This document shows, piece by piece, positions 21,145 through 58,663 of a stretch of 64,000 nucleotides of DNA (within the stretch, counting starts at the first letter, position 1; every line of letters begins with the position of its first letter). The notes below the pieces were generated by a model. The model was not told the origin of the DNA, ran no database searches, and saw only the letters and a list, made by a program, of their open reading frames with translations. Position numbers and translations under genes: made by a program. The DNA is from Mytilus galloprovincialis (taxonomy: Eukaryota; Mollusca; Bivalvia; Mytilida; Mytilidae), in NCBI RefSeq assembly GCF_965363235.1, contig NC_134845.1:67113261-67177260 (forward strand), given 5' to 3'.

Positions 21145-21622
21145 GAATAGGACAGAAAGTCACAGGACAAAAAGTCACAGACAAAAAGTCACGGACAAAA
21201 AGTTTACAGGACAAAAAGTCACAATTCATTTTTTCTGAATATTTTCTTTGAATAAAAAACACTTATTTCTACAAAAATATTTTTGTATTTTTTTTAACTA
21301 TTGTATATAAACCAATATTGTAAACAGTTATCCAAAAAATATCAAAGATGATCAAATAATTGTTTAAAAAACAAAATGTCAACGTGGCTTTGCACTTAAA
21401 TGGCTTCATGGTGCCAAGAAATATACCCTTTGCATGATTAAAATTAAATAAATCTTCATTTTTCAAGTATATTGACCCATTTCCTACACTTTAATATGAA
21501 TATATGTATTAAAAAGTAAATATTTCAATACATTTTTCTTATATATTCAAATAATTGTCAACAGATTATTTGTGACTTTATGTCCTGTGACTTTTTGTCC
21601 TGTGACTTTCTGTCCGTTTACC
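21145..21622. mobile_element. MITE with GTCACAGGACAAAAA inverted arrays
   Basis: An 8-bp target duplication GTTTGATC flanks the element (21137-21144 and 21623-21630). The left end reads GAATAGGACAGAAAGTCAC and the right end, inverted, GGTAAACGGACAGAAAGTCA. Behind each end, GTCACAGGACAAAAA-type units repeat: about five on the left, three on the right in inverted orientation. The centre is AT-rich and non-coding. A partial copy lies at 22578. The 8-bp duplication fits hAT, P, MuDR or Merlin; the superfamily is unresolved. Confidence 0.8.
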
Positions 21623-21855
21623 GTTTGATCTTGACGGGCACAATTCACGGCAATTAAGAAGTAAGTATACGCGTGTGGGAAGTGCTATGTTGCAGGGTAC
21701 AGGTTACATGTCACACACATGAATATTATATATGTAAAAAAGTTATATTTGGAGAGTTTAAACATATAAAATCTACCCAATGACTTCTATACTATTTCAT
21801 ATGCTCGGACTGTATAATTAACTCTTCAAACTAGCAAGGAAAAAAATATTTACCA

Positions 21856-22077
21856 TCCAGGTAAAATAATTTTGTCGTTACTAGTATCCATACATCATCA
21901 GTGTATTTACGTCTTTATTTTAAGACAATAACATACTGATTGAATTTATATCAATACATATGTCAATGAAAGAGTTTTAACCATATTGAAAAGCCACTTT
22001 AACATGAAAATTTATGTCCTTGCATAATTGATCTGCAATTGGGTCACACAGGTAAATAATTTTGTCGTTGCTAGTGT
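21856..22077 (+). repeat. copy of a 'ttttgtcgttgctagtg' repeat
   Basis: It starts and ends with direct copies of 'aggtaaataattttgtcg' followed by 'ttgctagt' (the first is ttactagt). The last third ('atttatgt', 'tgcataattg', 'gggtcacaca') parallels the element at 53507-53779. It appears to be a related non-autonomous element lacking the inverted left end seen there. Confidence 0.5.
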
Positions 22078-22138
22078 CAAGAGTTACACTTGCACAATCA
22101 AAATGAACGACAATGGCTGAGGGCACCTATATTTATAA

Positions 22139-22421
22139 GGCAGCAACCATTTGATTTTCTGGGGGGGGCTATGGTTTTTTTTTCTGGACAAATTATTTTT
22201 TTCGCCTGCGGCGAAAAACAATCTATTTTTTTCGCGACAAGTCGAAAACAATTTTTTTCTTTCAATTTTAGCATTACATATAGTAGCAGCTGAGGGTGAA
22301 ACAAACATTTTTTTTTTCTCAGAATCAAAAACAAATTATTTTTTTCTCCAAAAACTGGAAACAAACTTTTTTTTCCAAAAAAAACCATAGCCCCCCCCCA
22401 GAAAATCAAATGGTTGCTGCC
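22139..22421. mobile_element. PIF/Harbinger-like MITE, copy 1
   Basis: Terminal inverted repeats of about 37 bases begin GGCAGCAACCATTTGATTTT and run through a G8 tract to CTATGG. The 3-bp duplication TAA flanks the element (22136-22138 and 22422-22424). The centre has T-rich blocks 'caattttttt', a short inverted phrase 'cgcctgcggcg' and no coding capacity. TWA target duplications and GG-starting ends are typical of PIF/Harbinger. A second copy lies at 25763-26035. Confidence 0.85.
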
Positions 22422-22577
22422 TAACTTACTACAACACTATCAAAATTTAAACGAAAACTAAGAGATAATATCATAAAATACATATTAATCATAACTCTTA
22501 TTAAATTAACACATGGATTCATGACTGAAATGGTCATAAGTATTAACCATTCCAAACATACGGAAGCTGTAAACAGC

Positions 22578-22692
22578 GAATGTAGGACAGAAAGTCACAG
22601 AACAAAAAGTCACAGGACAATTTCATTTTTTCTGATTATTTTCTTTGAAGAAAAACTGCTTATTCTACAAAAATATTTTTGTATTTTTCTTG
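22578..22692 (+). mobile_element. truncated copy of the GTCACAGGACAAAAA MITE
   Basis: It begins GAATGTAGGACAGAAAGTCA and follows the left end and interior of the element at 21145 ('ttttttctgattattttc', 'ctacaaaaatatttttgta'). It then stops matching at about 22692, with no right end. Confidence 0.75.
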
Positions 22693-22699
22693 AACAAGA

Positions 22700-24205
22700 T
22701 TCGTCAATGACAGTTGCATCAGCTCTATCAATATCAGCTCCCCTAAACTTCTTGTAGAACATGGTTTTCTAAATCATACTGGTCTCTTACTATTTCTGTT
22801 ACATACCAGACTGCGGCAGCAATTTGAACAAGCGTTTTAGGATGGTATTAAATACTTCAGACGATAATTATTTCTTACACCTGAATACGGATTGTAGACG
22901 CTACTCGACTTTAATGTCCATCTACATGCGTGTTACTTAATTTCATTTTTCAACGACTGACTTTCACGTAAGTTGAACGTGAAATATTTCTCATGAATTA
23001 CGCGTATAATCTCGAGTAACGTAAAATTCCCGTGAACAAATGCATCTGTGTGCCGCAATTGAACATAATTTCATATAAAACATATACATGTACGGGTATT
23101 CTATATTGTAAACAAAGCAATAAAAAGTCCTGAAAAATTACTGATGAACAGACAGAGAGGTTTGCACCATTCACATAACCAATAAAAGATAGGAGCTAGA
23201 GGTTATATGTTCCATGTTAATTAAGACAGTATAACTTATACAGCCTGTTCCAGCAAATGTTACCCCCTTAAGGTGAAGCTACTGAGGAAAAAATTCGCTG
23301 TCGTTTTATCTAATCAATCAGGTGACGATACTTTGAGTGATGATCTTCGCAATCCAGCCTTGTCCTATTAGAGGCCTTACGCATTTCAATCTACGCAAAG
23401 ACCTTCTATCTCATCACGTTTAGTATATGTCGAGGATGTTAGCTTCACTGGGCGAAGAAAATCGACAAAAAAGGTAAACTAAAGAAACATGAGACAAGAA
23501 AAACAATAAAAAGGGAAATCAACAAGAGAACTGGTCAAGGAAAATGAAGATGAAGAACGAAGTTCTGAAATACTTGGTTAAAACAAACAAATCAAAGTAT
23601 CATGGATATTGTGATTCAGCCAATTTTGTAGCTAGTCGGTCATTTTTTCTGGCCACACTTTCAGTATTTGTTTTGTTATTTTGATTTTCGTAATCTCATT
23701 GTAAAATTCGATAATTATTTTGGTATTCCAATTGATGTAAAAATTCAAATGTAAAATGATATTATGCTATTGACAATTTGAAGAATGTTTTATATATACA
23801 ATTATATTGCTGGGTAATCAAATCATTACAACCGCTATTCAATTTCTTTGGTCAGTACTGTGTGTTAAGGAGATGTTTATATATGGTGAGATACTGGTTA
23901 CTTTTTCAATTGAAGTGCAATCGTCTCTCATTTTGGACTATGTATGATGAACGATATGCATTATTATTATTTTTTTTTGGGGGGGGGGGGGGTGCTGGTC
24001 GTCGCCACTTTATTACATATCATTATGTGTTTCGTGTCTTCTTGCTATTGACAGATTCTTTATTATCTCTACATAATTTTGAGCTTTGCATTGTCGTCTC
24101 TGTTAAAATCTTCATCCGAAAGCTTCCCTATATCTAGATAGTTTGGGAGGTAATCCGATTTTACCGAACTAGTTTGAAAACTAGGAGTTTTAGGCGCCTT
24201 TGGCA
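22700..24205. other. no gene recognised; one poly-G tract
   Basis: AT-rich non-coding sequence. A 14-base G run lies at 23979-23992. Open frames here lack domain-like character. Confidence 0.35.
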
Positions 24206-24209
24206 CAGA

Positions 24210-24640
24210 CTCCGTGCTTTGGCTGTCAGATGAGATGGCTAGCTTCTGCTTCTACAACGTAATTTACCCCCCCCCCCCCCAAGAGTGACTAGGGAAACGA
24301 AATATTGGTGAAAGTTAAATCGATAGGAAAGTCATGTAGAAAATCAATGACCTTTTTCGTTGTACCTATCAGAAAATTGTTACAGTTGACTGTTAGCTGT
24401 TCATGATTAATATCGGAATCACTCCATTTCTTTGACAATTTTTCCTCTAAAAATTACTTGATGTCTGCAAAATGACAGAATGGCATCTTATGGCCTTATC
24501 ATCTTCACAGACCAATTTAACATTACAAAACTTTCCTGCACGGTATGCATCTTGCAGTCTATCGACGAAAGGATAAGAAAAAGTTTTGGACCTACGAGCT
24601 CCACACGTTACGAAAAGGATACAGGAATGATAAAAAAAAA
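24210..24640 (-). pseudogene. BTB/POZ domain pseudogene
   Basis: The minus strand reads YPFVDRLQDAYRAGKFCNVK, LVCEDDKAIRCHSVILQTSS, then after a one-base frame change FLEEKLSKKWSDSDINHEQL, NNFLIGTTKKVIDFLHDFP, and later VVEAEASHLI. This is the standard BTB order: the 'aHk' alpha-helix, the 'S.yF' position, then the closing helices. BTB domains mediate dimerisation, often as CUL3 adaptors, but no Kelch, BACK or MATH part was found. A frameshift near 24447 and a C14 run (24267-24280) mark it as broken. Confidence 0.6.
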
Positions 24641-24659
24641 TGATTTCATACACCACATC

Positions 24660-25520
24660 GTCCTTTTTATCTTGTTATATTGGCCAATGGACGTTGCAAA
24701 CTCTAACCACCAATTTTGTAAATAATCTTGAAATCCATTCATTCAAATTATGACTTATTTACGAGGTAGTTAAAGTCACGTGCAACATGTACATTGCGCT
24801 ACAAAAGTTTCTTGTAATCTACATCCGATATCACCTCGAGATGTGCACGCCAGTTAAAGCTAGTTTGTCTAACGAAATGGTGCGTTTATTTTTTATCGTT
24901 TTGTAAATATTTTAAACATCGTATTACGTACATACTAAATAGTTTTAAAATTACATTGATAGGAACTCTACATTTGTATTTGTGTATCAAATGAATTAAC
25001 CTTTGCACTGATTAATCCACACGCTCACAGTTGTGTATGTCATGTGTTGCTATTTTATATAGGCACGTACATACCACAAAAGTTTTAACCATTAGTAAAC
25101 AACAAATGAACTGTGCATGTTCATGAGGGGGGTGCATGACTTTCCCTAGTATATCCACACATTTAAATACTTCCTTGAGGATAGAAATTTCGTAAGTAAT
25201 AGCAACGTCAAAACAACTTACGTTGGGAGACATATTGTTGTATGTATTTTAACACGAACTGACAAGGAGAATGTGGCGTAAATCAGAATCAGTACATAGA
25301 GGTAAATTAGCGAAATAGATTGCATTATGCATCTATGCAGGTTATTTCTTTTTTGTACCTAAGAAGAGTTGGGTACACGAAATATATATAAAACTTAATT
25401 CTTATTCTTAACTGCTACTTCAGCATCACATGTGTTCACATCTGCTTCTTTACTCTAAAAATTGTGGTTTGTTTAAATAATTTGATGGTTGGCAAAATAT
25501 AAACAAGAGGCTAAAAATCT
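24660..25520. other. no recognised feature
   Basis: Non-coding AT-rich sequence. The 5' part may be the upstream flank of the BTB pseudogene. Confidence 0.3.
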
Positions 25521-25526
25521 TAAGGT

Positions 25527-25676
25527 TTAGCCTCTTGTATACCCAAACTTTTGATAACTATGTCAAAGTATTTGCATAAAGGAAAATACTGCCAAACAGA
25601 TTAGCCTCTTGTATACCTAAACTTTTGATAAATATGTCAAAGTATTTGCATAAAGGAAAATACTGCCAAACAGATT
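25527..25676 (+). repeat. tandem duplication, about 74-base unit
   Basis: The phrase from 'tagcctcttgtatac' to 'actgccaaacagatt' occurs twice in a row with about two differences, the copies starting near 25528 and 25602. Confidence 0.85.
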
Positions 25677-25762
25677 GGGAAACTGCTTTCCTGACTGTTA
25701 AAAACAATAACTTTCAAGGCCAATATCATATGTTTCATAATAAAATTAAAATAAGGAGGTTA

Positions 25763-26035
25763 GGCAGCAACCATTTGATTTTCTGGGGGGGGGGGGGGGG
25801 GGGGGGGGGCTATGGTTTTTTTTTCTGGACAATCTATTTTTTTTGCGACAAGTCGAAAACAATTTTTTTCTTTCAATTTTAGCATTACATAGTGGCAGCT
25901 GAGGGTGAAACAAACAATTTTTTTTTCTCAGAATCCAAAACAAATTATTTTTTTCTCAGAATCCAAAACAAATTATTTTTTTCTCCAAAAAAAACATAGC
26001 CCCCCCCCCCCCCAGAAAATCAAATGGTTGCTGCC
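25763..26035. mobile_element. PIF/Harbinger-like MITE, copy 2
   Basis: It has the same termini as copy 1 (GGCAGCAACCATTTGATTTT and its inverse) with TTA target duplications (25760-25762 and 26036-26038). The G tract in the left repeat is 25 bases here (25785-25809) against 8 in copy 1, and the matching C tract is 14 bases (26000-26013). The phrase 'agaatccaaaacaaattatt' is duplicated near its right end. Confidence 0.87.
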
Positions 26036-26102
26036 TTACTGTTAAGACACACAAGATAATCCAGTTAACCAGGTACATAAAGAACAGTTAATATGAAATT
26101 AA

Positions 26103-26220
26103 GGGGATGCGGTATGATTGCCAATGAGACACCTTTCCACCAAGTAACTTAAAAGAAAATATCTACATGTCACCATAAATTGCCAGGAGTAAAACAATGG
26201 TGAGTGCCCAAACATTTCTC
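26103..26220 (+). repeat. short copy of the 'attgccaatgagacaac' repeat
   Basis: 'gatgcggtatgattgccaat' and 'gagacacctttccacc' match the repeat at 8119. The copy is short. Confidence 0.5.
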
Positions 26221-26356
26221 TGACCAGAGATAGTGATATTACAGCACTATAATATGATTCTGAAAAAGTTATATTTCCATTGCAAAGATCAAATATGTGT
26301 AGAACCTTAACATGTCTTATTATTTATAATTTGACAAAAAATATAAAATAAAAGCT

Positions 26357-26594
26357 ATCTTTGGATATTTTCACTCTGGTTTTATCTAGAGTAGTTCTGA
26401 AGTCTCCATCTTTTTGAGGTTGTTAGTCCCTGCCCTCGTCAATTTGCTAGGTCAGCACGGAAAAACAACAAAGGCATCACCTTTCTGATTACGAAATATC
26501 CAGGGCTGCTTTCTTTTTAAGTCTTTTGCATGATTTTCTATATTGTTTCTCCATCAACTGTAACATCTACACTCTCAATTAACTTCACATTCTT
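26357..26594 (-). pseudogene. BEN-domain exon, broken copy
   Basis: It is the paralogue of the exon at 29927-30161. The donor has changed from GTAGCT to ATAGCT, and an extra T in the run near 26410 shifts the frame. It is the non-functional partner of the duplicated pair. Confidence 0.65.
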
Positions 26595-27235
26595 CTGAAA
26601 TGCAATAGTTCCATATTTGATATATTACAAAGTGAATATGTGATGATAATGATGTCATTACGGGACAACACGCTTATCTTCAAAATTTAATGATATTATA
26701 CTGTCAAGTAAAATATACATATAAATACCAATAAACCTTAAATGTATGAGGAGTTAGTAATTCTACGTTAATACTGTTATAGAGTGTAAACATTTAACAT
26801 GTAGAAGTTAATTTTAATTACTAAACAAAAATAATAAAGAGAAGGATTTCCTTAAAAAATTATGTGTCCTCATCAGGTACTTATTACTTCGTTTAAAAGT
26901 TCTAAATGCACATATTTATTAAATGATATGGAAAAACCCTAATACGGATAAATCAGCATGTGCAATACTGAAAACGTTCCACAAGATTTAATATTGCTAT
27001 TCGAACAGGGCCAATACAGAAAAAGGCGGAAAAAAGCTGTATTGGCCCATGGGTTATACAGGATGTTCACTTTCGGTTTTTATTTGTTTTATGCCATCAC
27101 TAACTATAGAAATATCGTTATGCATAAACAGGTTTGTATTATATTTTTTTAAATTAAAATAATAAGTTATCTTTTTTTCAATCTTATGTTTTTGTAGTCT
27201 CATCAGAAGGAGCAATCTCTTTCATCGATACCACA

Positions 27236-27545
27236 TTACCATTCAAGTAATGTAGAAGTCAGCACCATTTCTACTGGCGCAAATTGCGCCAGTAGAAATG
27301 GTGCAATCTTGTAAATTTCCTCCTTCTCAACCACAAACTTCCCAGTACTTTTATACGCTGGTAGATTATTAATGCCAACACTGAACTTGACGTCGTCAAA
27401 CTTTATTATGCCTCTCTTTGTCCCACTGATTGATGAGCCTCCTCTATACACTCTTTTGTCTTTGCCTATAAATTTTACGTATACTTCGTCGCCTATATTA
27501 TATTCGGATGGTGGATATTTTGCCAAACCTTTTTTATTGACGTGG
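27236..27545 (-). pseudogene. SH3-like exon, copy 1a
   Basis: The minus strand reads YNIGDEVYVKFIGKDKRVYR, then GTKRGIIKFDDVKFSVGINN and TGKFVVEKEEIYKIAPF. The DEVYVKF and GIIKFDD strands suggest a small beta-barrel. A 43-base palindrome at 27262-27304 is inserted within the 3' part and changes the frame's ending (LLAQFAPVEMVLTS). Role unknown; probably part of the same gene family as the BEN exon. Confidence 0.45.
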
Positions 27546-27571
27546 TATGAAAAGTTATCTTTTTTTCAATC

Positions 27572-27794
27572 TTATGTAGTCTCATCAGAAGGAGCAATCT
27601 CTGTCATCGATATCACATTACCATTCAAGTAATGTAGAAATGGTGCTATTTTGTTAATTTCCTCCTTCTTTACCACAAACTTCCCAGTAGTTTTATACGC
27701 TGATAGATTATTGATGCCAACACTGAACTTGACGTCGTCAAACTTTATTATGCCTCTCTTTGTCCCACTGAATAAAAGTTGAGCTGTCATGGTT
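27572..27794 (-). CDS. SH3-like exon, copy 1b
   Basis: After acceptor TTTTTCAG, the exon AACC-ATGACAGCTC opens a 72-codon frame: MTAQLLFSGTKRGIIKFDDV, KFSVGINNLSAYKTTGKFVV, then APFLHYLNGNVISMTEIAPS and a stop. It lacks the palindrome and most likely shows the ancestral exon. It may be a short protein or a terminal exon of a BEN-type gene. Confidence 0.4.
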
Positions 27795-28012
27795 CTGAAA
27801 AAAATATATTTGAATTGAATATTAAATTTTATATCATCTTATACAACAAATCATCAAAAACATATAAACAAATTACAAAATCTAATCCGGTAGATGGTTC
27901 AAAAGTGAAACGTGATCTTTTAACATTCCCTAAAATATGTCACCAGTCACATTATATATCAAGTATTATGAACGATTTACCACAAAGAATTCTGGAACAT
28001 ATACACTACTAA

Positions 28013-29900: not shown

Positions 29901-29926
29901 GAATGTGTATATAAAATAAAAGCTAC

Positions 29927-30161
29927 CTTTGGCTATTTTCACTCTGGTTTTATCTAGAGCAGGTCTGAAGACTCCATCTTTTGAGGTTGTTAGTCCCTGC
30001 CCTCGTGAATTTGCTAGGTCAGCACAGGAAAACAACAAAGGCATCACCTTTCTGATTACGAAATATTCAGGGCGGCTTTCTTTTTGAGTCTTTTGCATGA
30101 TTTTCTTTATTGTTTCTTCATCAACTGTAACATCTGCACTCTCAATTAACTTCACATTCGT
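29927..30161 (-). CDS. BEN-domain exon
   Basis: An internal exon with acceptor TTTCAG and donor GTAGCT, 235 bases, open throughout. It reads VKLIESADVTVDEETIKKIM then PEYFVIRKVMPLLFSCADLA and SRGQGLTTSKDGVFRPALDK. The order of a helix with paired hydrophobics, 'LFS..dLa.S.g.G', then 'aLD..rv' is that of a BEN domain, a DNA- and protein-binding module of chromatin factors and some viruses. The rest of the gene was not assembled. The upstream SH3-like exon in this copy (30780-30935) is broken, so the gene may not be functional. Confidence 0.55.
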
Positions 30162-30779
30162 CTGAAATGCAATAGTTCCTTATTTGATAGATTACAAAGT
30201 GAATATGTGATGATAATGATGTCATTACGAGACAACAAACTTATCTTCAAATGATATTATACTTTCAAGTAAAATATACATATATATACCAATAAACCCT
30301 AAATGTATGAGGAATTAGTAATTCTACGTTAATACTATTATAGAGTGTAAACATTAAACATGTAGAAGTTAATTTTAATTACTAAACAAAAAATTATAAA
30401 GAGAAGGATTTCCTTAAAAAATTATGTGTCCTCATCAGGTACTTATTACTTCTTTTAAAAGTTCTAAATGCATATATTTATTAAATGATATGAAAAAAAA
30501 ACCTTATACGGATAAATCAGCATGTGCAATACTGAAAACGTTCCACAAGATTTAATATTGCTCTTCGAACAGGGCCAATACAGAAAAATGGCGGAAAAAG
30601 CTGTATTGGCCCATTACTTAACTATAGAAATATCGTTATGCATAAACAAGTTTATATTATATTTTTTAAATTAAAATAATAAATTGTCTTTTTTCAATCT
30701 TATGTTTTTGTAGTCTCATCAGAAGGAGCAATCTCTGTCATCGATATCACATTACCATTCAAGCAATGAAGAAGTCAGC

Positions 30780-30935
30780 ACCATTTCTACTGTAAAAATG
30801 GTGCTATCTTGTAAAGTTCCTCCTTCTCAACCACAAACTTCCCAGTACTTTTATACGCTGATAGATTAAAACGTCAAACTTTATTATGATTCTCTTTGTC
30901 CCACTGAATGAAAGTTGAGCTGTCATGGTTCTGAA
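30780..30935 (-). pseudogene. SH3-like exon, copy 2, broken
   Basis: It starts like copy 1b (MTAQLSFSGTKR), but sequence loss after KFD removes the DDVKFSVGINN part and shifts the frame. It also carries the precursor of the palindrome seen in copy 1a. Confidence 0.5.
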
Positions 30936-30960
30936 AAAATATATTTGAAATGTATATAAA

Positions 30961-45080: not shown

Positions 45081-45084
45081 GATG

Positions 45085-46530: not shown

Positions 46531-49500
46531 TTAAAACATGTTATAATCCTGGTACCTTTGATAACTATTAATAGTATACTTGCAGTTGCAAGGAACACAT
46601 TGTGGTTCATCTTCATTTTTTAAAAGATACTCATGTGTTATTCTAGTATGACCAATACGACATCTAGTAATAACACACTGATCTTTTCTGTACATAATAT
46701 TATTAAAAGGTTTGCCTAAATTAGGTTTAATTTCATGCAATTTATTATCATCTTTTTTACTCCATTTATTTTTCAATATATAAAAAACATATTCTCTAAT
46801 ATTAGATTTAAAATCAGTATATGGTATATCACAGTTAGATAGAGGGTCACCCAGGGCATTCTTTGCCTCAAGGTCTACAGCTGTGTTTCCAAGGATTCCA
46901 ACATGACTCGGAACCCATAGAAATATTATTTCTTTCAGAAGAATTTTTAAATTCCTCATTACATATAAAATTTTGAGAATTGTTGGGTTTTTAATTTTAG
47001 TATTTCGTATAGCTTGTAAGCATGAAAGTGAATCCGAACATATAATAAATTTGGATTTATCTGAAGAAGCATTAAATTTCAAAGCCAAAATTATTGCTTC
47101 TGCTTCAGCAGTAAAGATGGATGCATCAGATGGCAAACGGAGAGTTGCAGCTCTGTCCCTGAAGACAGCAGCAGATGCAACTCTGTCACCATCTTTTGAT
47201 CCATCAGTATAGACAGTTGAAAAATCTAGATAATCGGCTTTAATTTCAGCATAGTGTTGCTGAATTAAAAGAGGATTTGTTTTATTTTTATTGTGTTCAC
47301 GGAGATCAAATATCATTTTTGGTTTGGGAAGTTCCCATGGAGGACATTTGCAAGTTTTAAATTGAGCAACAGATTTTAAATCAAAAGAAGCTAAATGTGG
47401 TTTTAAACGTATACCTAACGGAGGAATTTTATTTTCATGTTTTGCAAAAATATCTTCATAAATCGGATTAAAAACACAGCTGTAGGCGGGATTATATGAA
47501 TAGGCTTTCAGTTTGACAGCATATTGAAGTCCAAGCTTCAAACGTCTGTCAGAGAGTGAGTGCTCATCAGCCTCTACATACAGACTCTCAACTGGTGAGG
47601 TTTTAAATGCGCCAAGACAGAGACGCAAACCTTGGTGATGCACAGCATCGAGAATCTGTATGTAGGACTTCCTTGCAGAGCCATACACTATAGAGCCATA
47701 ATCTAGTTTAGATCTAACTAGAGATCTATATAAATTAAGTAAAATGTTGCGATCAGCACCCCAGTCAGTGCTGCCGACAACTTTTAAAATATCTAAAGCT
47801 TTTAAACATCTCGATTTTAACATTTTGATATGGAGTAGAAAGGTTAAATTTTTATCGAAAATTAACCCAAGAAATTTGGTTTCATCAACCATTTTAATTG
47901 GGTTGCCGTACAAAGTGAGTTCTGGATCAAGATGCAATTTCCTTTTGTTACAAAAATGCATCCCGACCGTTTTTGACGTGGAAAATTTAAAACCATTTTC
48001 CGAGGCCCATTTTTCAATTCTTCCAAGACATAATTGTAATTGTCTTTCTATGTTATTCATATTTTTGCCTCTGTAACATATTAAAAAATCATCAACGTAC
48101 AATGAACCTTCAATATTACTTTTTAAAACTTCAACAAGGCTGTTGATTTTAAGACTAAATAATGTAACAGATAAAATACTGCCCTGAGGGACACCCATCT
48201 CTTGATCATACAGATCAGACATGGTCGAATTAACTCTAACATTAAATTGTCTGTTTGAGAGAAAATTAGAAATAAAATTAGGCATATTGCCTTTCAACCC
48301 CATATCAAATAAATCTTTTAAAATACCATATTTCCATGCAGTATCATAGGCCTTCTCAAGGTCGAAAAAGACCGACACCACATGTTCATTTTTCGCAAAA
48401 CCATTACGGACAAATGATTCGAATCGAACAAGATGATCAAGAGTACTGCGGCCCTGTCGGAATCCACACTGGATATTGGCTAATAGCCCATTGGATTCCA
48501 AGAACCAAACAAGGCGATCATTGACCATCCGTTCGAGTGTTTTACAGACACAACTGGTAAGAGCAATTGGTCGATAATTAATAGGATCCGTATGATCTTT
48601 ACTTGGTTTTGGAATAGGCACGACGGTTGCAAGCTTCCAGATTGATGGTAAATCACCAGATTCCCAGATGTTATTCATGAGCTGCAAGAGAGCTTCTAGC
48701 GAGGAATCTGGCAAGTGTTTTAAGAGTTGGTAGTGAATATTATCAGGCCCACAAGCTGTATCATGGGCTTTTAATAGAGATGTTTTAAGTTCTTCAAGAG
48801 AAAATAGTTTATTATAATTTTCACCATTTTTTTATTTAAAGTTTAATTTAATTTTTTCTTTTTGTTTTTTAACTTTTTTAAAGTCTTCCCTGTAGTTGTT
48901 ACAAGAAGAAGATTTCGCAAAAGTTTCACCAAGCTTGTTGGCAATATCCTTTGCAGATGTTAATAAATCATTGCCGTCTTTCAAATGTTTTACAGTGGCT
49001 TTAGAATTTTTACCTTTTATTTTGTTTACCATATTCCAAACTTTTGTCATCGGAGTGCGAGATGTAATCCCCGAGACAAATTTTTTCCAGGATGTTCGTC
49101 GGGCTTGCCTACAAGTCCGCCGTGCCTTAGCGCGAAAAATACGGAAATTACTCAAGTTTTCCGTCGTTGGTTGTTGATTGAACCGTCTTTCAGATTTTTT
49201 ACGGTCACCTATGGCTTGATCACAAGCGTCATCAAACCATGGTTTGCTGGGATGTTTCGGATTTGCCGAGGTCTTAGGAATAGTTCTGTCAGCAATTGAC
49301 GTTAAAACTGTATTAAAAGTTAAAATTGGATCTTGTACTGTCTCAAACATCTTTGACTGAAGTTCCGCTTGACAGAGATTCTCAAACAAGGACCAGTCTG
49401 CCTTGTCAAGTTTCCAACGTGGTACTCTCTGTTGGGCAGAAGTAAAAAGATGTTCAAGTGATCACTTCCACATAGATCATCAAGAACACGCCATGAATAA

Positions 49501-50081
49501 TCCAGAAGCAGAGAGGGATCGCAAATAGTGATATCAATAGAAGAATAAGACCCGTTTCCAGGATGAAGATACGTATTAGATCCATCATTAAAAATGCATA
49601 ATCCTTCTTGAGAGACAAAGTCCTCAATGATTTTACCTTTGGCATTATGAGTCTTGCTACCCCATAATGGATTGTGAGCATTGAAGTCGCCCATAAGAAT
49701 AAATGGTGAGGGTAATTGATCAGTGAGGTTTTTGAGTTTTGCTTTATCTATAATTGAATTGGGTGGAATATATATCGAACATAAAGTAATTGTTTTGTCT
49801 AATGATAAACGAATTGCAACTGCTTGCAGATCCATGGTGAGTTGGACTGTGCTATGAATGACGTTGTCCTTCACAAAAATGGATGATCCGCCTGCAGCAC
49901 GTTCATCTACTTTAGAAAATGTGCTATACATGTTGTATCCTTTTAAAAATACATTGTCACTTTCTTTTAGATGAGTTTCTTGAAGACAAAATGCAATAGG
50001 TAAAAATGACTGAACTAGAAGTGTTAACTCGAGAAGATTTATTTTAAGACCTCGGCAATTCCATTGGATGATATTTGTCAT
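46531..50081 (-). pseudogene. LINE ORF2: endonuclease, reverse transcriptase, RNase H
   Basis: It starts with ATG at 50081, overlapping the ORF1 stop by one base. Endonuclease motifs: QWNCRGL, QETHL, MGDFNAHNPLWG, SDHLNI. A frameshift lies between about 49440 and 49390. The linker runs 49389-48833, with an in-frame TAA at 48832 in an A-rich stretch. Reverse transcriptase motifs: NYRPIALTS, FDLEKAYDT, GVPQGSILS, YVDD. RNase H motifs: VYTDGSKDGD, FTAEAEAIILAL, CSDSLS and WVPSHVGILGNTAVD, with D, E, D and D in place. The C-terminal cysteine motif is cut by a ~26-base insertion near 46541-46567 ('ggtacctttgataacta') that is absent from the copy at 33792. The protein nicks target DNA, copies LINE RNA and removes RNA from the hybrid. 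Confidence 0.92.
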
Positions 50082-51598
50082 TATTTAATATTAGAAGGGC
50101 GAATGCTGTCGAGTTTGCCAGCATTCTTATTTCGCTCACCCTGAGATTGTGATCTTTCGAGTGGCGGAACACTTTCGATTTCCATTTCAGTTTCGTCGAC
50201 AAGTGTTGAAAATCTGTTGTGCGAGGAGAGTCGTCGATCTCCAGGACCACACGCAGCTGGTTTTACTCCGCCTCGACCCCTACCCCGCGACCTCGAATCA
50301 GAAGACTTCTGAGAGGATGTATTTACTGGCTTCTTTTGGACATCCTTGTTTTCTGGAGAACGAAGGGGAGATGGGGCTCTAGTAGACTTTGTATTGGACG
50401 AAGAAGTTAACTTCTTAGATGAAGGAAGACTTTTTGAGGTGGAAGAATCATCTATGTCAGTGGGAAGATCCCAGACAGATCCAACGCTCCAATTGTGTAT
50501 TTCTACTGTTTCTTTTTTATTTGATTTCTTTTTCTCATTTTTTTTTTTTGGTGATGATATTGAGCTCTGTAGGGAAGACTGAGTTGACTGAGTACTGGTT
50601 TTGGAAGATTTTGGTTTTCTTGGAATTAATATTTTATCGGTAGGTTCTGTTTCAACAGGCAGCATTGTGAAATTGTCCGCATCAATTGGCCAAGTCATGC
50701 GAGTTTGTGAATTCTCGTGACTGAAAGAGCGGACAACTTTGCTGGCGTACGATGGTCTGTTTGAAACAAGGAGATCACTCGAAACAGAAGCTATCTGTTT
50801 AGCTTCTGGGTAACTGATGTTTCTTTCTGTTTTAATTTTAATAATATTTTTTTCTTTAAGGTAAACAGGGCAGTCCCTAGACGATGAAAAATGGGATTCA
50901 CCACAGTTTACGCATTTAGAAGATTCAGAGTTACAGTTTGTTCCCTCGTGTCCTTCGTCAGAACACTTGAAGCATCTCTGCTTACCACGACATTGTTTGC
51001 TTCCATGCCAAACTTTTGACAAGTAAAGCATCGAATTGGGGTTAGGGATAAACATGTCAACTCTGATTCCGAAGCAACCTAAAGTAATAGATGGAGGAGG
51101 AGTTGGAGTTCTAAAGGTCAAAAGATATGTATTTAATTTGATTATATTGCCATTCTTTTTAATTTGAAATCTAATAACATCAGTTACACCTTGGCTTGAA
51201 AGTTCCTCGCCGATTTCTTCCACGGTAAGGTCACCAAGGTATTGACTTCTGTCTCGAATGATCCCCTTACAGCTGTTCAAACTGTTATGAGGAGAGGCAG
51301 AAACAGGAAAGTTTGTTATTGTAGTCATTGTAAGTAAATTTGTTGATTGACTTTTTTTGGAACATTCAACCAACAAATTGCCAGATCTCATTTTGGAAAC
51401 TTTTTTTACAGTACCAGCAACGCTTTGAATTTGTTTGTGAATTACAAAGGGCGATATTTTTGAAATTGGTTTTTCATCTGTTCCTTTTATTACAATAAAT
51501 CTGGGCCAACTGTCATCTTCCCGACAGGGCTCTGAATCATCACATTTTCTTTTCTTATGTATTAAAGCTGATTTAGAGGGTTTGTTTTGTTGTGCCAT
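50081..51598 (-). CDS. LINE ORF1, CCHC zinc-knuckle RNA-binding protein
   Basis: The frame is intact at 505 codons from ATG at 51598. The frame is open for 12 more codons upstream, but with no ATG. A basic start (HKKRKCDDSE) leads to a folded region (WPRFIVIKGTDEKPI, VTDVIRFQIKKNGNIIKLN). Two zinc knuckles follow at about residues 205-250: CFKCSDEGHEGTNC and CVNCGESHFSSSRDC. The C-terminal half is Ser/Lys-rich, then SRGRGRGGVKPA. In I-type LINEs this protein coats the RNA and brings it to the target. The stop codon overlaps the ORF2 start as TAATGA. Confidence 0.92.
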   Translation of the reverse strand: MAQQNKPSKSALIHKKRKCDDSEPCREDDSWPRFIVIKGTDEKPISKISPFVIHKQIQSVAGTVKKVSKMRSGNLLVECSKKSQSTNLLTMTTITNFPVSASPHNSLNSCKGIIRDRSQYLGDLTVEEIGEELSSQGVTDVIRFQIKKNGNIIKLNTYLLTFRTPTPPPSITLGCFGIRVDMFIPNPNSMLYLSKVWHGSKQCRGKQRCFKCSDEGHEGTNCNSESSKCVNCGESHFSSSRDCPVYLKEKNIIKIKTERNISYPEAKQIASVSSDLLVSNRPSYASKVVRSFSHENSQTRMTWPIDADNFTMLPVETEPTDKILIPRKPKSSKTSTQSTQSSLQSSISSPKKKNEKKKSNKKETVEIHNWSVGSVWDLPTDIDDSSTSKSLPSSKKLTSSSNTKSTRAPSPLRSPENKDVQKKPVNTSSQKSSDSRSRGRGRGGVKPAACGPGDRRLSSHNRFSTLVDETEMEIESVPPLERSQSQGERNKNAGKLDSIRPSNIK

Positions 51599-52345
51599 AT
51601 GAAAGGAGAAAGATTCACCATTCTTGTCATCCACCCACCTCGGAGTGCCTACAAGGGCGATGCTGTGTTTCCGTGGCGAACCGGGATCAAGTGCTAATGC
51701 TGAAAACGAGCTCCAAATATAATGTAGCTGGTCCTCAAAATCAGCACCTAAGATCCACTGCGGAAAGCACCAGATGTTCCAAGAATAGTATACTCAAGCA
51801 GAGCGTATCCATCAAGCGAAAAAGAAAGCGTACCACTTGATTGACCCATGAGCCATCGCCTTCTTCAGTTATCCGAAATATAAATAGCTTAATTTAAAAT
51901 ACATGTGTATATTATGAAAATTGTTACAGGAAAGCTTATTGTTGAGGATTAACTGAAGGGCTCGACATGACCAGCCGATTGATCGAACCGGGTCCATCCG
52001 ACCTCCCGTTTAGATGATATCGAAGCCAAAGCAGCTTATTGAACTATAGTCTCGTCCGTCCGGGTATTTTCTGACCGTAAGGAGTCTGGTTATAGCCCTC
52101 ATCCACAAGGATCTCGTCAACCACCGACACGGGTAGCAACCCACGGCAAACGGGTTGGAGAGCCTATTTTATTTAAAACATCGGGCATCTCACGATGTTC
52201 CGATCACTTTAGTCTGGTCTCTACCCTTCGACCTGTCCAGCATGGGTAACCCTACCAGGAGACAAAGCTCCAGCTGGCATAGCTCTTGGGGTCACTGAGA
52301 CACACAAGCTCCCCGACCACGGCAAGGATAGCGATCCACCGGAGG
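51599..52345 (-). promoter_or_regulatory. LINE 5' untranslated region and likely internal promoter
   Basis: About 747 bases between the element's 5' end and the ORF1 ATG. It is more GC-rich than its surroundings, and LINEs of this type are transcribed from an internal promoter here. No specific promoter motif is claimed. Confidence 0.55.
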
Positions 52346-52880
52346 GTAAAAGAATTAGAAGCTTTCCAAATAAAATCCACATTCTATGGGACAAAGATTT
52401 TATTATTTTTCCTTTCAGTCCTGGTGAACATAAATGTGTTTGATAGTAAGATAAATTTCATAGGTGAGGAGGTCCAAAATAACAGCCTGACCCCAACCCT
52501 TACTGATAACAATGTAGAAATATTTTTATGTTTGATAAAAGATGGTTAACAATCATAGTGTATTTGTAAAATACCTTCTTATAAAATTTCAAAGAGATCC
52601 ATTATGTAAACTAAAGTTCTTGTCCGAAACCAATTGTGTCCTCGGACGACGCAGACAAAGACGAAATTATACCATTATACGATCTCAAAAAATGTTTTTG
52701 CGGTCGTATAAAAATGAGTGGCAAAAGATACAAGCATGACCAGAGGGACATTCAAACTCAAAGAAAAAAGACAAACAAATAAAAGTACAGCACAAAACAC
52801 AACATAGGAAACTAAAGACTACGTGGACTTTAAACAATGCGAACTCCACCAAACACTTTGGATGATCTCAGATCTCATAG
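52346..52880 (+). repeat. segmental duplication copy C, right part
   Basis: It starts with the second target duplication (52346-52359), then matches copy B from 'agctttccaaataaaatcc' (42888) to 'ggatgatctcagatct' (about 43401). It includes the 'gggacattcaaactc' repeat fragment (about 52722-52870). Copy C ends there, before the beta-barrel exons. Confidence 0.88.
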
Positions 52881-53506
52881 GGAAATCTGTTCGTATTTTG
52901 AGTAATTAAAATATAAACCCTTTCGGGTCAGTCTTGAAGATGTGTTACAATTATGACAAACAATCCAAAATTAAGGATGAATATATCAGACTATTACTTA
53001 ATAGCAAGTGTAGAAAAACACTTGCATAAATATCATCTTTTATTAATCAATCATTTGAAATAAGGAAAATATCCTTATAACGAGTATTATGAAAAATTTG
53101 ATATACTTGTATCAGTAACCTATTCTAAATTAACCTATACATATTGTTATTTTTATAACTGCACATTTAAATGTTCGAAATATGCCTATTGATTTTATAT
53201 GTAGTATTGTTTATTTGCTGCATCATTACTAATTGTATACAAGTTGCCAATTATTGTAATTGAGTTTGTGCCAATGAAATATTTGTATTTGAGTTTGTGT
53301 AGGGCAAATTTCTCGGAAACTAAGTAGTAATTGCGTGTGCCAATAAAATATTTCTATATGTGGATGTTTAGGGCAATTTACTCGGTAACTAGGTAGTAAG
53401 TTTACACGAGTCGGCATCAAACTCAAACTTAATGGATAATAGAAGTGTAAATGTAATCCTTTGACTCTCTGCTATGGACGACTTAAATCGTATATATGAC
53501 TCTTTT
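52881..53506. other. no recognised feature
   Basis: AT-rich. Two loosely similar phrases ('gtgccaatgaaatatttgta' and 'gtgccaataaaatatttcta', about 53269 and 53337) suggest an old local duplication. Confidence 0.35.
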
Positions 53507-53779
53507 CTAGCAACGACAAAATTATTTTCAATACAGGTGAAATAATTTTGTCGCTGCTAGTGTATAACATTTATGTCACTCTTTCCAGACAATTTATCCT
53601 TTAAAGTAAATTATCAACAAAGATATCAATTAATAAAGTTATAGAATTTAAAAACATAAATTTGTAGATTATAGAATTTTAAAACATAAATTTATAGAGT
53701 TGTTAACATCATGGATTTATGTTTGCACAATTGTTCGTCGGTCACGCATGACACAGGTAAATAATTTTGTCGTTGCTAG
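53507..53779. mobile_element. MITE-like element, 'ctagcaacgacaaaattatt' ends
   Basis: CTAGCAACGACAAAATTATT at 53507 is the exact inverse of the right end (53759-53779). An extra inward copy of the right-end motif lies at 53539-53560, forming a tight hairpin with the left end. The interior holds a duplicated 'ataaatttgtagattatag' phrase. Its right half matches 21856-22077. No target duplication was confirmed. Confidence 0.6.
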
Positions 53780-53789
53780 TGTAGCAGGA

Positions 53790-54168
53790 ACTATTCTGCT
53801 GGAGATTCGGGGATGCGGACCACAGCTAATTCTAGTTTGTAAACTGATGTGAACGGAAAGGACTGATGCCAAATGTAATGCGCTCTAATACATCTAAGTA
53901 AATGAAAACCAAAAATGAAAATAATATATATTTTAATGAACAAAGTACATCTTTTATTATGTAGAGCCAAAGGTGAAAAGAAATGGAGCATTATATGACT
54001 TCAAATTACCGGTACAAAGGAGGCATGTAGCCACTAACCTAAACGATGGTTGGGAACCTTGGCTTTCCTTGGTTGGACTGAAAGTCAGTCCTCAGAGCAT
54101 GTAGCAAAAGAACTAATATAACAGATAATTGGAAAGCTTGGCTTTGCTTGGTTGGACCATGGAAGTAT
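53790..54168. other. no gene recognised
   Basis: 'ccttggctttccttggttgg' and 'gcttggctttgcttggttgg' form a short local repeat (about 54058 and 54136). Nothing else was seen. Confidence 0.3.
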
Positions 54169-54726
54169 TGTAACGTTTGTGGGTCATCGTAAATTCCCCT
54201 TTTTCTATTTTTAGATACTATATATAACTATAGTTGTCCGGTCACTTTTTCGCGGGGATCGTTTATCTCGTGCTTGAACTCAATGTCCAGACTAGGATAT
54301 TTAAACCTCGTCAGGGCAGTATTTCTTTAGATTGGGGAAAACTTTCGTACTGGTAAGTTGTACTTTAAATTTCAATTTATTTTGTATTTCGATGTTTGAC
54401 TTAAATATTTATTTCTTTACATTTGATATATCTCTTTTCGGTCTCGTAGTCAAACAGTTCTAAAATGTTAAATTTACGTTTCCGTTCCAGAATAAAAAGA
54501 GGGAATTGTACACTAGCTTGATATTTTATGATTTCGGGTTTATAAAGAGATGGGTTTCATTTTGATAGCGATATTTAGACAGAGGGTTAATCCGAGGGAT
54601 ATTTTGGAGTAACGGTCGTCAATCTACGGGATTGTTCGTGCCTAATTACTCTGAAATAGAATTTTGTATTATCGCATGTTTTGGTTTTGGATCTTGAACT
54701 GGTCAATTTTATTGAAAAACGTTTTT
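54169..54726 (+). mobile_element. LTR-like repeat, copy 1 (558 bp)
   Basis: It starts TGTAACGTTTGTGGGTCATC and contains a TATA-like 'atactatatataac'. The same 558-bp sequence recurs at 60815-61372. The TG start, the promoter-like content and the purine-rich tract before copy 2 suggest LTRs. Its end was taken as the end of identity; a CA end is not evident. It is treated as an LTR fossil. No gag or pol was seen between the copies. Confidence 0.5.
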
Positions 54727-56306
54727 AAAGGCAGTGCTTTAAGGCCTGACTTTCAAGTCATGAGGTTCATCTTTTCATACGCAATCTATGCAGGGGGTCT
54801 TTTGGCCAGGGATAGATCCGGAAATGTTCGAATTTCTCCTCTTCTTTTTATGGTATGATATGGTTTTTGTTTCTTTCATTTACATTGGGGACTAAAGAAA
54901 CGATCAGTGTGTATTGTTCGTTTTATAGAACTTGTTATTAATGTGTATTTTGCATGATAAGCAGTCAACCTGACTACAAACTATCATTATTTGTATTCCG
55001 TGTGGAAAGTGGTCGGGTCAATTTCGAGTGATTTCTGACATCTAAAGATTTTTTAATTAGTTCAGACGTTGATATAACAATGAAAAGTCGACTGAACATG
55101 ATTAATATTGCATCTTCTATAATTCAAAGCGGAATTCGGTTTATAAACGAGAAACCGTAAAGCGTTTTCAATTTCTGTATTAGTTGTGTATGTTGTCTAC
55201 GTATTATCCTGGTTCCCGGTACTACGTTCCGGGTATTAGTTATTTGATATATCTGATGTGTAACATTACGATCAGGTACCAGCCAATCTACGTGTGTATG
55301 TGTACATGATTTCCCGCCAAAATGACCGACTTACAGCTATGGAAAAATAGTCCATAAACGTTCCGTATAATGATATGCAAATTCATAATTAATCGTAATT
55401 TTTTTTATCTTTATATAATAAATATAACAAAATGGATTCCACAAAATTGAAAATAGCATTATTTTACGAGGATTTCTAATATTTTTTTCACTTCCGGGCG
55501 CAGTAATACGTATGTTTTGAAGAAGCTCCAAGAAATTGACAAAGTGAATTGAGAAGGAAACGGATAGATATACGTCCTTGCTATCAGGTAAAACAATTTA
55601 AATGTACAGAAAAAACACATTTACTTCACACAAATAGTACAGGCTTAAGCATTTTATTGTCTTATACACGACTGTAGTCTAGTGTTTAAACGACGGCGGT
55701 GACCTACAAGGTACGGGTCATACTGGGTCAAGTCTAAATATGTAAACATATCCACGTGCTATTAGGTAGAAAGCATCGTAATGCAATATCTACAATTTTT
55801 TCCTCCTTTATACATCGTTTAACCAGATATATTTCTCTTTCAAATACACTTAAACACGGGTTGTATGTACGTATCTTTTCTAGTGTTTTCTTGTCCTTAT
55901 TAAAGTTCATTTGTTGATGTTTAAATATTTTTGAACGACTGAACACAGGAGTGAATGAATGCAACAATTATATATACTGAAGACTTGGGCTGTACAATGA
56001 TAGTGTACGTATATCATACTGATAATTATTCTAGCAGTAATAATGTTAATTTAGGATGTAATGACAGGAATTCATGAGCTGTGCCTCAGGCTTTCTGAAA
56101 AAATATCAATGACAATGTAAACAGGAACAAAACATTGACACGAATGATGCTCTCTTCTATGTTATAGTTATTTAGGTATGTGTGTTGCACAAGTTTCAAA
56201 AAAACTTAAGTAATAAAACTTTTTTTCAGGGCACAAACCCACTTTAAAGAGACTTGTCTACTGCCATACCCATCCTATTTTCATGCACCATTTGCAAGCA
56301 AGAGAC
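54727..56306. other. no coding region recognised between LTR-like repeat and next MITE
   Basis: AT-rich. If this is the interior of an LTR element, its genes are gone or unrecognisable. Confidence 0.3.
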
Positions 56307-57002
56307 GAATCCGGGTCGGTTCGCCCTGATTCATGTTCGCCCTAGTACCTGTTCGCCCTGATACCTGTTTGCCCAGGGTCCATTCGCCCTGATTATTATT
56401 TTTTTCTAATTGTTGTCTAGTCGCATTATTTTAAGTATTTAAACAAATTATGTTAAAGTTTGTTGAAAAATTGACAGAATATTTATATTGCCGCAATCAA
56501 TTTAACATTTTCCCTTTCAGTTTGATTTGCAGAGTAGAATACTGGAATACAATGTAGTTATCTTTATTGATATTTGTTAACAAAATAATTGTTAACAGTC
56601 AATCACGAAAGTATGCAGTATAAATAAATGAGCTTGTAAATCGGTTTCATAATTAACATTTCGTACATCATTAGTTTTATTAATTTCATGCTGAATATTT
56701 TATCAAAATAAAACGTTTGTTTTTATTATTAATCCATCAAAAGACAAGTTTTACAATAATCAGTTATCTGAATCATTTTGTAATTGAACAATTAATGATC
56801 AAAAACAAGCCATAAACTTTTAAATATTTCAATGTTTCCATAAATTTCAAGAATATACATGATATATATACCATAGAAATATCTGAATAAGTTTATTCAA
56901 CTTCAATGCCCTGAATATTTAATATTTTTATAGTAGGGCGAACGAACTCAGAGCGAACGGACCTAGGGCGAACACGTTATTAGGGCGAACAGTCCCGATA
57001 CC
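56307..57002. mobile_element. MITE with TTCGCCCT inverted arrays
   Basis: A 9-bp target duplication GCAAGAGAC flanks it (56298-56306 and 57003-57011). The left end reads GAATCCGGGTCGGTTCGCCC; the right end inverted reads GGTATCGGGACTGTTCGCCC. TTCGCCCT or a one-base variant recurs every 17-19 bases: five times at the left end and four times inverted at the right. About 550 bases of AT-rich non-coding sequence lie between. Confidence 0.85.
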
Positions 57003-57011
57003 GCAAGAGAC

Positions 57012-57875
57012 TGAATGGTTTGCAAAATTAAAAATCAGGACGGTGTCCAGTTAAACCAAAAGAACTAAACTGGATGAATATTGTAGGAGAAATCTAGAGG
57101 AAAGTTTTGATTTGTGAAATTGGTTTTCCTGAAAAGTCATTCATCCTAGCCTGCAGAAAGGAACTATAACTGTCCACCACCAACTGACGAGCTAATGTTG
57201 AGCTTCACATATGGAATTACTCAAATACCATCAATGTCTATGTTTTCAGCACAGATTTCACAAGTTATGACACAGCTGTGCTTTTTTTTTTTATACCTGT
57301 TAAAGAGTTGTATACTAAATTTTATTTTTTTATCAATAAATATATCTTGTGTCATTTAAGAACTTGTATTTTGCCAAAAGATGCATACTAGTGAATGAAA
57401 GTAGTGCAGTTCATTTTGCTTTGGTATATAGAATTGAATTACAATTGTTCATGTTATTGGAATGCATATAAAAATAAGGAGATGTGGTACAATGTATATA
57501 CATGATATTTAGTGAGTTTATCAAGCAAAAGTGAATAAGAAATAGGTATAAGCAGTTACAGGTACTACTGTACAATCTCAAACAATGAGAAAAACTCATA
57601 CCGTAAAGAGAATTTCATATTTACAAGTAAGTTTTGTTTTTGCGTTGAATAATTTTCTTCTATTGTTTTAATTGCAAATATGGGAAGTGGTTAAAATGCT
57701 AATGAGACAGCTGTTATGGCCACAGAGCCTTAATTGAAAACTTCTTTTTCATTCATACCAGTAGATTTTGCCTGGAGTTAGAAACATATCTGCCAACTTT
57801 TCAAAATGCACATGGGGGTTTTACGTGAAAGATGGTTCATATAGTCATACAAAACCTTCAAGGGGGCCTTCAAAT
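57012..57875. other. no recognised feature
   Basis: AT-rich sequence between two MITEs. Confidence 0.3.
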
Positions 57876-58663
57876 GGAAGCAGGACAAGTCGCCCCACTG
57901 GCTAATCGCCCACTTTTAAAAAAACCGCCACAAACTGATTTATCAAATCGCCCCACATGTGAAATTGGTTAAATCATGTTAAATATTACTCCTGCCAACC
58001 CGCCCTACTTATAAAAAAACGGTAATATTTAGATTAATATATATATATATATATAATTAAAAATAAAAACTCGCACCACTTTAATGAAAACTAATCTACA
58101 CAGAATACAAACAAACTGAAAATTTATTTAATTACTATTATTGATATACTGAAATTATAATTCTAAAAAAAATGTATTGTTGAAGAATAACTAAGTTTTG
58201 AAGCTTAGTTATTTGCATAACAATTGAAAAGAAACCTGTTAATTGTATCATAATGCAATATAAGGAATTTAACTTATATTCAACGGGATAACATCTTTTT
58301 CCATAAGTGGGGAGAGTTGGCATTACTAAATTCATCCTGGTTAATAATATATTTATCTAGATTTCACCGATTTCCATTAGGTGGGACCAGTTAGCAGGAG
58401 TAATATTAACGGAATTTAACTTATATACAACGGGATAACATCTTTTTACATGAGTGGGGCGAGTTGGCATTAGTAAATTCTTCCTGGTTAATAATATATT
58501 TATCTAGATATTATCGTTTTCTATTAGGTGGGGCAAGTTGGCAGGAGTAATATTAAGGGATATAACACATTTCACAAGTGGGGCGATTCGGTTATCCAGG
58601 TTGGGGCAGTTTTTTTAAAGTGGGGCGAGTTAATGAAAAAGTGGGGCGATTTGTCATGGATTC
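57876..58663. mobile_element. MITE with TCGCCCCACTT inverted arrays
   Basis: A 9-bp target duplication CCTTCAAAT flanks it (57867-57875 and 58664-58672). The left end reads GGAAGCAGGACAAGTCGCCC; the right end inverted reads GAATCCATGACAAATCGCCC. Long inverted repeats (over 100 bases, imperfect) contain TCGCCCCAC-type units, about four to five per side. The interior has a 148-base tandem duplication (about 58263-58410 and 58411-58556, 'caacgggataacatcttttt'), each unit carrying more 'gtggggcgagttggca' motifs. Confidence 0.85.

Follow-up and report, generated by a model that had tools for sequence, protein, structure and literature searches.

Introduction

Mutator-like elements (MULEs) generate target site duplications (TSDs) of 8 to 11 bp, and a FLYWCH domain occurs in several of their groups (PMC6446971). 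In the accessible text on the Tm1 elements of root-knot nematodes, which are of the Phantom-type Mutator/Foldback kind, asymmetric 7-bp terminal motifs and a GGA are described together with tandem units of ~14 bp, TSDs of 8 to 10 bp, mostly 9 bp, and a transposase with FLYWCH and MULE domains (PMC3169594). For Aedes aegypti, the available portion of the report describes 14 MULE families; subterminal tandem repeats of 9 to 15 bp are present in 10 of the 12 families with long terminal inverted repeats (TIRs), FLYWCH is found in 13 of the 14, nonautonomous derivatives mostly share just the ends, and the single transposase of Muta1 makes TSDs of either 8 or 9 bp, as shown in yeast (PMC5225508). 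The VANC motifs are tandem repeats that change together (PMC5735166), and the word "subterminal" is absent from the accessible text on MULEs across molluscs (PMC10294476). Here, we describe three miniature inverted-repeat transposable elements (MITEs), El1, El2, and El3, in a 64,000-nucleotide stretch of the Mytilus galloprovincialis genome (contig NC_134845.1, here C8, positions 67113261-67177260), which is referred to as the window. Very probably, El1 to El3 are nonautonomous members of several Phantom-type Mutator-like families, with arrays of short motifs that most likely represent transposase sites. This shared layout is what Phantom-type MULEs ordinarily have, and the plan has already been published for nematode Tm1 and the Aedes Muta families. 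An earlier reading of the window, made from the sequence only, had called private arrays with common ends less usual, which is too strong a statement in view of Tm1 (PMC3169594) and the 10 of 12 Aedes long-TIR families (PMC5225508), at least as far as the accessible text of these reports extends.

Results

The sequence-only reading reported one plan in three elements and a fourth candidate, namely, target duplications of 8 to 9 bp and inverted arrays of a private motif behind the ends. This plan was recovered for El1, El2, and El3, with duplications of 8, 9, and 9 bp, respectively, but not for the fourth candidate, El4, which is without an 8- to 9-bp duplication. In the following, features lie on the plus strand unless stated otherwise. 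El1, a member of the family fam1, spans positions 21145 to 21622 and is flanked by the 8-bp TSD GTTTGATC at 21137-21144 and 21623-21630. Its left array, consisting of (A)GGACAAAAAGTCACA-like units, occupies 21149-21223, and the inverted right array occupies 21571-21615 on the minus strand; two bases of the consensus left end, GAATGTAGGACAG, are missing in the window copy. El2 (fam2; consensus ends GAATCCGGGTCC and GGTATCGGGACC) spans 56307-57002 between two copies of the 9-bp TSD GCAAGAGAC (56298-56306 and 57003-57011), with TTCGCCCT units at 56320-56390 and an inverted array on the minus strand at 56935-56989. El3 (fam3; ends GGAAGCAGGACA and GAATCCATGACA) spans 57876-58663, with the 9-bp TSD CCTTCAAAT at 57867-57875 and 58664-58672, a left array of TCGCCCCACTT units at 57890-58081, and an inverted right array at 58305-58649 on the minus strand. 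In addition, El3 contains an internal 150-bp tandem duplication that is 90% identical. The array motifs were counted and compared with dinucleotide shuffles of each element (500 for El1), and the counts exceed those of the shuffles in all four elements, El4 included. The El1 motif occurs twice on each strand with up to 2 mismatches and in none of the 500 shuffles, the El2 motif occurs four times on the plus strand at the left and three times on the minus strand at the right (shuffle mean, 0.01), and the El3 motif occurs three times on the plus strand and five times on the minus strand (shuffle mean, 0.008).

The genome searched comprises 1.38 Gb in 331 contigs, and the best 40 candidates were scored for each of El1 to El4, so that all copy numbers are lower bounds. 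Among 18 fam1 copies, a TSD with at most one mismatch is 8 bp long in 12 and 9 bp long in 4; the remaining two copies comprise one with an 8-bp duplication and 2 mismatches and one that is unresolved. One family can make TSDs of 8 or 9 bp, and TSD length was rejected as a divider between families because fam1 makes both; the check on TSD length suggested by the sequence-only reading is uninformative for the same reason. The fam2 family was examined at 33 loci, 28 of which were scored: 17 have exact 9-bp TSDs, 1 has one mismatch, 2 have two mismatches, and 8 have a poor duplication or none. The other five loci had an end that was missed at the set limit, and one of these (L028) is exact at 9 bp by a separate reading. 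The repeat that surrounds El2 was compared in 11 copies, which were picked from 29 other El3 loci, and 8 of these have an empty site, in which the flanks are joined and El2 is absent. For El3, an empty site with a single CCTTCAAAT was found at 115 places with up to 3 mismatches, 11 of them exact, and the reversed-pattern control gave 0. All 29 El3 loci fetched elsewhere align to the window past both El3 ends, mostly over ~2.3 kb; these copies thus spread as part of a larger repeat, and their independent multiplication was rejected since the flanks are common to all. The TSDs of fam1, fam2, and fam3 are within the 8 to 10 bp of Mutator-like/Phantom elements, with the 9 bp of fam3 representing one insertion event. 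The TSDs of 8 or 9 bp in fam1 and of 9 bp in fam2 fit MULEs, as far as these are described in the accessible text of PMC5225508 and PMC6446971.

The earlier description of the outer ends as GRA-N-GGAC fits poorly. In the El1, El2, and El3 families, the consensus is 7 bases, which differ between the two ends of an element, followed by a GGACA-like block. Most ends fit one ungapped register, in which a variable stretch of ~7 bases precedes a block resembling GGACA or TTC, and a private core follows. The consensus ends are GAATGTA-GGACA-GAAAGTCAC and GGTAAAC-GGACA-GAAAGTCAC in fam1 and GAATCCG-GGTCC-GTTCGCCC and GGTATCG-GGACC-GTTCGCCC in fam2, and those of El3 are GGAAGCA-GGACA-AGTCGCCC and GAATCCA-TGACA-AATCGCCC. 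Written in the same way, the ends of four MULE elements, K, F, M, and B, are as follows: GAATGTA-GGAAA-AAAAGTCAC and GGTCAAC-GGAAA-AAAAGTCAC in K, GGGCATA-GGACA-TTTGAGCG and CGGCAAT-GGACA-TTTGAGCG in F (GCGCAAT in the first copy), GGTGTGT-TCCCA-TTTCGCCT and GGCTTAT-TCTCA-TTTCGCCT in M, and GGTGTCT-TCCTC-GAATGCCA and GGTTTAT-TCCTT-GAATGCCA in B. Two further loci were read at the left end only, with GGTGTCT-TCAAC-CTATGCCA in L129 and GGTGTCT-TCTGG-CTATTCCT in L130. The mean identity between families without a shift, calculated with the pair fam1/K omitted, is 0.385, compared with 0.248 (standard deviation, 0.019) at random offsets, and none of 2000 random values was as high; of 36 family pairs, 21 fit best without any shift. 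TTCGCC lies at an equal distance from the end (bases 14 to 19) in fam2 and M. Mirrored arrays with one unit type at both ends are present in fam1, fam2, El3, K, F, M, and B, and in these seven families, for which both ends were read, the first unit starts within ~8 to 14 bp of either terminus. Possibly, the GGA and TTC groups represent separate lineages.

A genome search for the MULE domain (PF10551) gave 140 matches, with 150 of 324 candidates scored, and a second list contains 95 places. The start of one MULE domain is 1.8 kb away from the start of a fam1 place, of which 39 were compared, and 0.04 fam1-MULE pairs within 5 kb are expected by chance. At this locus (L069), a fam1 copy at 912-1373 adjoins a complete element, K (L069:1615-4447; 2833 bp), which has the 8-bp TSD TCAAAGTA, the ends GAATGTAGGAAAAAAAGTCACAGG and GGTCAACGGAAAAAAAGTCACAGG, inverted El1-type arrays at both ends, and termini near-identical to those of fam1. 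In K, 454 codons without a stop form a frame that includes FLYWCH (PF04500; E value, 1.7e-11) and MULE (E value, 2.7e-10) domains. The fam1 family shares its ends with this MULE transposase element in both register and array type, and the match is limited by one fixed base difference per counted unit. Units were counted by their fit to GGA[x]A.AAAGT[C/T]AC, and units differing elsewhere were left out; x is A in 10/10 units of K and in 5/5 in another K copy (C1:49214823; L128), for which the stretch fetched covers the right end, with the same array, and x is C in 54/54 units from eight fam1 loci, which are not independent because fam1 copies are related, and in 5/5 units of the fam1 copy beside K. 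Repeat expansion plus conversion would yield a base change that is uniform at both ends, and the proposal of the sequence-only reading that arrays turn over and spread to both ends is supported by the 10/10 versus 54/54 difference. These sequence comparisons support arrays that turn over and probably become uniform at both ends.

Arrays also accompany MULE transposases with other motifs. Flanks of 1.6 kb to either side were read at another five MULE loci. F and M carry private clusters at both ends, and L has a left cluster of M's family; no array was found in the 2 × 1.6 kb opened at each of the A and C MULEs. F is 2664 bp long, and in the five copies with both ends in view, the 8-bp TSD is exact in four, as judged by eye. 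Ten further end-window pairs of F comprise three with both ends and an exact TSD, one with both ends and no TSD, and six that missed an end. Like F, M (2637 bp; TTTTAAAC) and B (L131; 2738 bp; ATAATAAC) have a K-like layout with other motifs, and B has an 8-bp TSD and its motif at both ends. In seven M relatives, for which 551 bases at one side were available, at least two motif units are present in L129, L130, and L131 and none in the other four. A K-like MULE at C11:60436607 shows no array units in two 401-base windows. Overall, 8 of the 15 MULE loci opened (K, its C1 copy, F, L, M, L129, L130, and L131) have arrays in the stretch fetched, with six motifs; this is not an unbiased rate, because K was reached via fam1 and the M relatives were picked by similarity. 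The MULE DDE domain (PF10551) is over the cutoff in all three of the K, F, and M transposases, and FLYWCH is over the cutoff in K and M. As a separate observation, a B-type right end at ~370 to 475 of L129 stops 15 bases short of the left end of the next MULE (GGTGTCTTCAACC), which places two elements close together.

Several observations were made on fam2 itself. Facing fam2-type ends lie 5.06 kb apart at C8:68310635-68315692 and may delimit a long fam2 element. One fam2-type right end (GGTATCGGGATCGTTCGCCCTGATTACATG) has 57 exact copies in the genome; the GGTATCGGGATCGTTCGCCCTGATTACATG MITE appears to be a young burst related to fam2 and is ~0.8 to 1.3 kb long in the five pairs with both ends listed. 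In addition, a fam2-type left end with TTCGCGCCC in place of TTCGCCC, another motif variant, occurs at 327 genome places with up to 2 mismatches. In two long fam2 copies (L091 and L092), the longest frames are LINE-like (resembling long interspersed nuclear elements), by eye only.

Discussion

In the preferred explanation, the private motifs clustered at either end of an element most likely serve as binding sites for the transposase of its own family. Mirrored clusters would let two transposase assemblies, which would bind through their FLYWCH domains, face each other at paired ends, the outer ~7 bp and the GGACA- or TTC-like block would set the position of cutting, and integration would yield the duplication of 8 or 9 bp. 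Motifs would differ between families through joint divergence of transposase and sites, and slippage and gene conversion would keep the units of one element alike. MITEs such as El1 would then be mobilized in trans. El2 and El3 are provisionally placed among the MULEs by their ends and TSDs, and the label Phantom depends on the domain pair FLYWCH plus MULE and on the accessible text of PMC3169594. Under this explanation, the shared layout of unrelated-looking MITEs would gain a cause; if each private array addresses a single FLYWCH transposase, MITEs could be assigned to their movers by means of the arrays, and K and fam1, as sister families, offer a small and direct test of joint protein and site change.

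Several findings weigh against this explanation. K is not the exact partner of fam1, since it has GGAAA where fam1 has GGACA. The search for autonomous partners suggested by the sequence-only reading gave the related MULE element K for fam1 and none for fam2 among the places listed. The fam2-type end places listed are 100 of 172, 100 of 153, 100 of 327, and 98 used of 107, and in a script comparison none of them lies within 5 kb of the 140 plus 95 MULE places, the nearest listed pair being 12 kb apart. Neither fam2 nor fam3 elements were found to contain a MULE, with no end search aimed at fam3, which copies of the host repeat would flood. Three long fam2 copies (L090 to L092; 2.7 to 3.5 kb), which carry exact 9-bp TSDs, were candidates for autonomous elements but have no stop-free frame over 128 codons, their longest frames being 95, 128, and 119 codons, respectively. 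The FLYWCH match of F is below the cutoff (E value, 0.078; 13.6 bits versus 23.6), there is a stop inside the B frame, and the units at one end of M and B occur in both orientations, forming clusters and not clean head-to-tail arrays. Seven of the 15 MULE loci opened are without an array in the stretch fetched. In the register comparison, a nonzero shift improves the fit for 15 of the 36 family pairs, and F is out of register with the B group, with F/B being the worst pair (0.12). Finally, the identity between K and M is 21/55 in FLYWCH and 30/96 in MULE; FLYWCH is not the more diverged of the two, as coevolution would have predicted, so the comparison does not show that the binding domain changes rapidly.

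Of the other explanations, convergence is the best survivor, and it is improbable: El2 and El3 would come from another superfamily with 8- to 9-bp duplications (hAT, P, KDZ/Zisupton, or Merlin) and would have arrived at the same plan. The genome contains 24 matches to a KDZ transposase domain (PF18758), and Galileo, of the P superfamily, also has tandem transposase sites in long ends, according to the accessible text (PMC3688188). However, a KDZ partner near the listed copies is unlikely, as in these incomplete lists all 24 places are more than 20 kb away from the fam1, fam2, and fam4 places, with fam3 not compared and hAT, P, and Merlin not searched for; the ends also fit the MULE register, with TTCGCC in place in fam2 and M. 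No Zisupton with subterminal repeats was found in the open-access literature.

Slightly less probable again is that the arrays are targets of a sequence-specific antisilencing or regulatory protein, like VANC of Arabidopsis VANDAL elements. The accessible text on VANC describes motifs that change in concert and vary from one related element to another (PMC5735166), which matches the picture of K and fam1. The fixed start of the first unit, at the distance from the terminus given above in all seven families, is instead as for end recognition sites, and among the K frames listed, none besides the transposase exceeds 205 codons, the one of that length being antisense to the transposase. This argument covers K only, and F, M, or B may encode an accessory protein.

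The sequence-only reading had also suggested that one transposase tolerates any sequence arranged as clustered inverted sites, so that a single enzyme would move all families behind common ends. The ends of fam1, fam2, and El3 are indeed alike (GAAT/GGTA and the GGACA block), and there is no El2 partner among the places listed. However, different arrays go with strongly diverged transposases, with those of K, F, and M just 26 to 28% identical to each other and those of B and M 44% identical, and the uniform difference between the K and fam1 motifs is unexpected if the sequence were irrelevant. One tolerant transposase is accordingly very unlikely, and the protein comparisons point to many related transposases, each probably with its own motif. 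Least credible of all are functionless slippage products, which would account for unit numbers and spacing that vary between copies and for the 150-bp internal duplication of El3 but not for mirrored, same-unit arrays at a fixed distance from the end in fam1, fam2, El3, K, F, M, and B.

Beyond the assignment of El1 to El3 to MULE families, the genome may contain six or more related MULE lineages that form a graded series, the end motif having been replaced stepwise in a fixed register, with a Tm1-like outer block of 7 bases and with all units of an element changing together. We put this forward tentatively, judging it somewhat short of an even chance. If true, the series would document in nature how specificity is switched in a transposase together with its clustered sites and how MITE families split. 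In the portions of the open-access literature available, no report was found in which private motifs are replaced in register between the MULE families of a single genome. The graded motif series in one register and the fixed difference between the sister families K and fam1 are the points worth keeping.

Other features of the window

A truncated fam1 left end with two array units is present at 22578-22691. El4, the failed fourth candidate (4526-5374), has motif clusters with four units on the plus strand and two on the minus strand (shuffle mean, 0.002), and its two ends are identical (GTTCCGG; GTTCCGGACC) and flanked by AT repeats. Whatever outer end was tried, a duplication of 8 or 9 bp was found in at most 3 of 7 sister copies, and a 10-bp duplication was found in 2 of 7 at best. 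El4 therefore falls outside the 8 to 10 bp of Mutator-like/Phantom elements, and it was rejected as a member of the plan because it is without an 8- to 9-bp TSD. The ~114-bp El4 end recurs inverted at both ends of a sister element of 0.86 to 1.06 kb, as seen in the seven pairs opened. Of three full-length El4 relatives, two have the outer flanks of the window on both sides and one has them on one side, and by their sequence these relatives look like copies of a larger repeat.

The larger repeat that hosts El3 spans 54730-59303 (no strand assigned), with El2 within this copy, and appears as an insertion when compared with 60811-61768, a part of the second copy of its surroundings at 60811-62345. 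These surroundings form a ~1.5-kb stretch that occurs twice in the same orientation (54165-54729 plus 59304-60032, and 60811-62345), ~780 bp apart. The two stretches resemble a short pair of long terminal repeats (LTRs), which by eye start with TGTAACG and end with GTTGCA; the first is interrupted by the host repeat of El3 and the second by a 242-bp insertion. Between them, a one-sided tandem array of TTCGTCACCATTTGGACC-like units was noted by eye at 60563-60680. In addition, stop-free frames of 766, 209, 254, and 570 codons lie on the minus strand at 46534-51793 and are LINE-like by eye.

Comparison with known systems

The systems compared here are known from the accessible portions of the reports cited. 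Like Tm1, the M. galloprovincialis elements have an asymmetric outer 7 bp, GGA, inverted tandem units, TSDs, a FLYWCH plus MULE transposase, and MITE-like members. Tm1 differs in its motif (CGATTCAGTATCGC), in an extra GA-rich motif, and in being one family, whereas several families with different motifs occur in the one M. galloprovincialis genome, and one group has TTC instead of GGA. The Aedes families Muta1 to Muta14 are similar in their 8- or 9-bp TSDs, subterminal repeats, FLYWCH, and nonautonomous derivatives. Compared by description, the ends of Muta1 are a 10-bp imperfect palindrome, whereas the block in M. galloprovincialis is shorter, variable, and unequal at the two ends. VANDAL elements and VANC share short tandem motifs that change together and differ between related elements, but these motifs are in noncoding regions and not at the ends, and they serve antisilencing by a separate protein. 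Galileo of Drosophila, a member of the P superfamily, likewise has tandem transposase-binding sites in long inverted ends (PMC3688188), but with a THAP domain and a P-type transposase.

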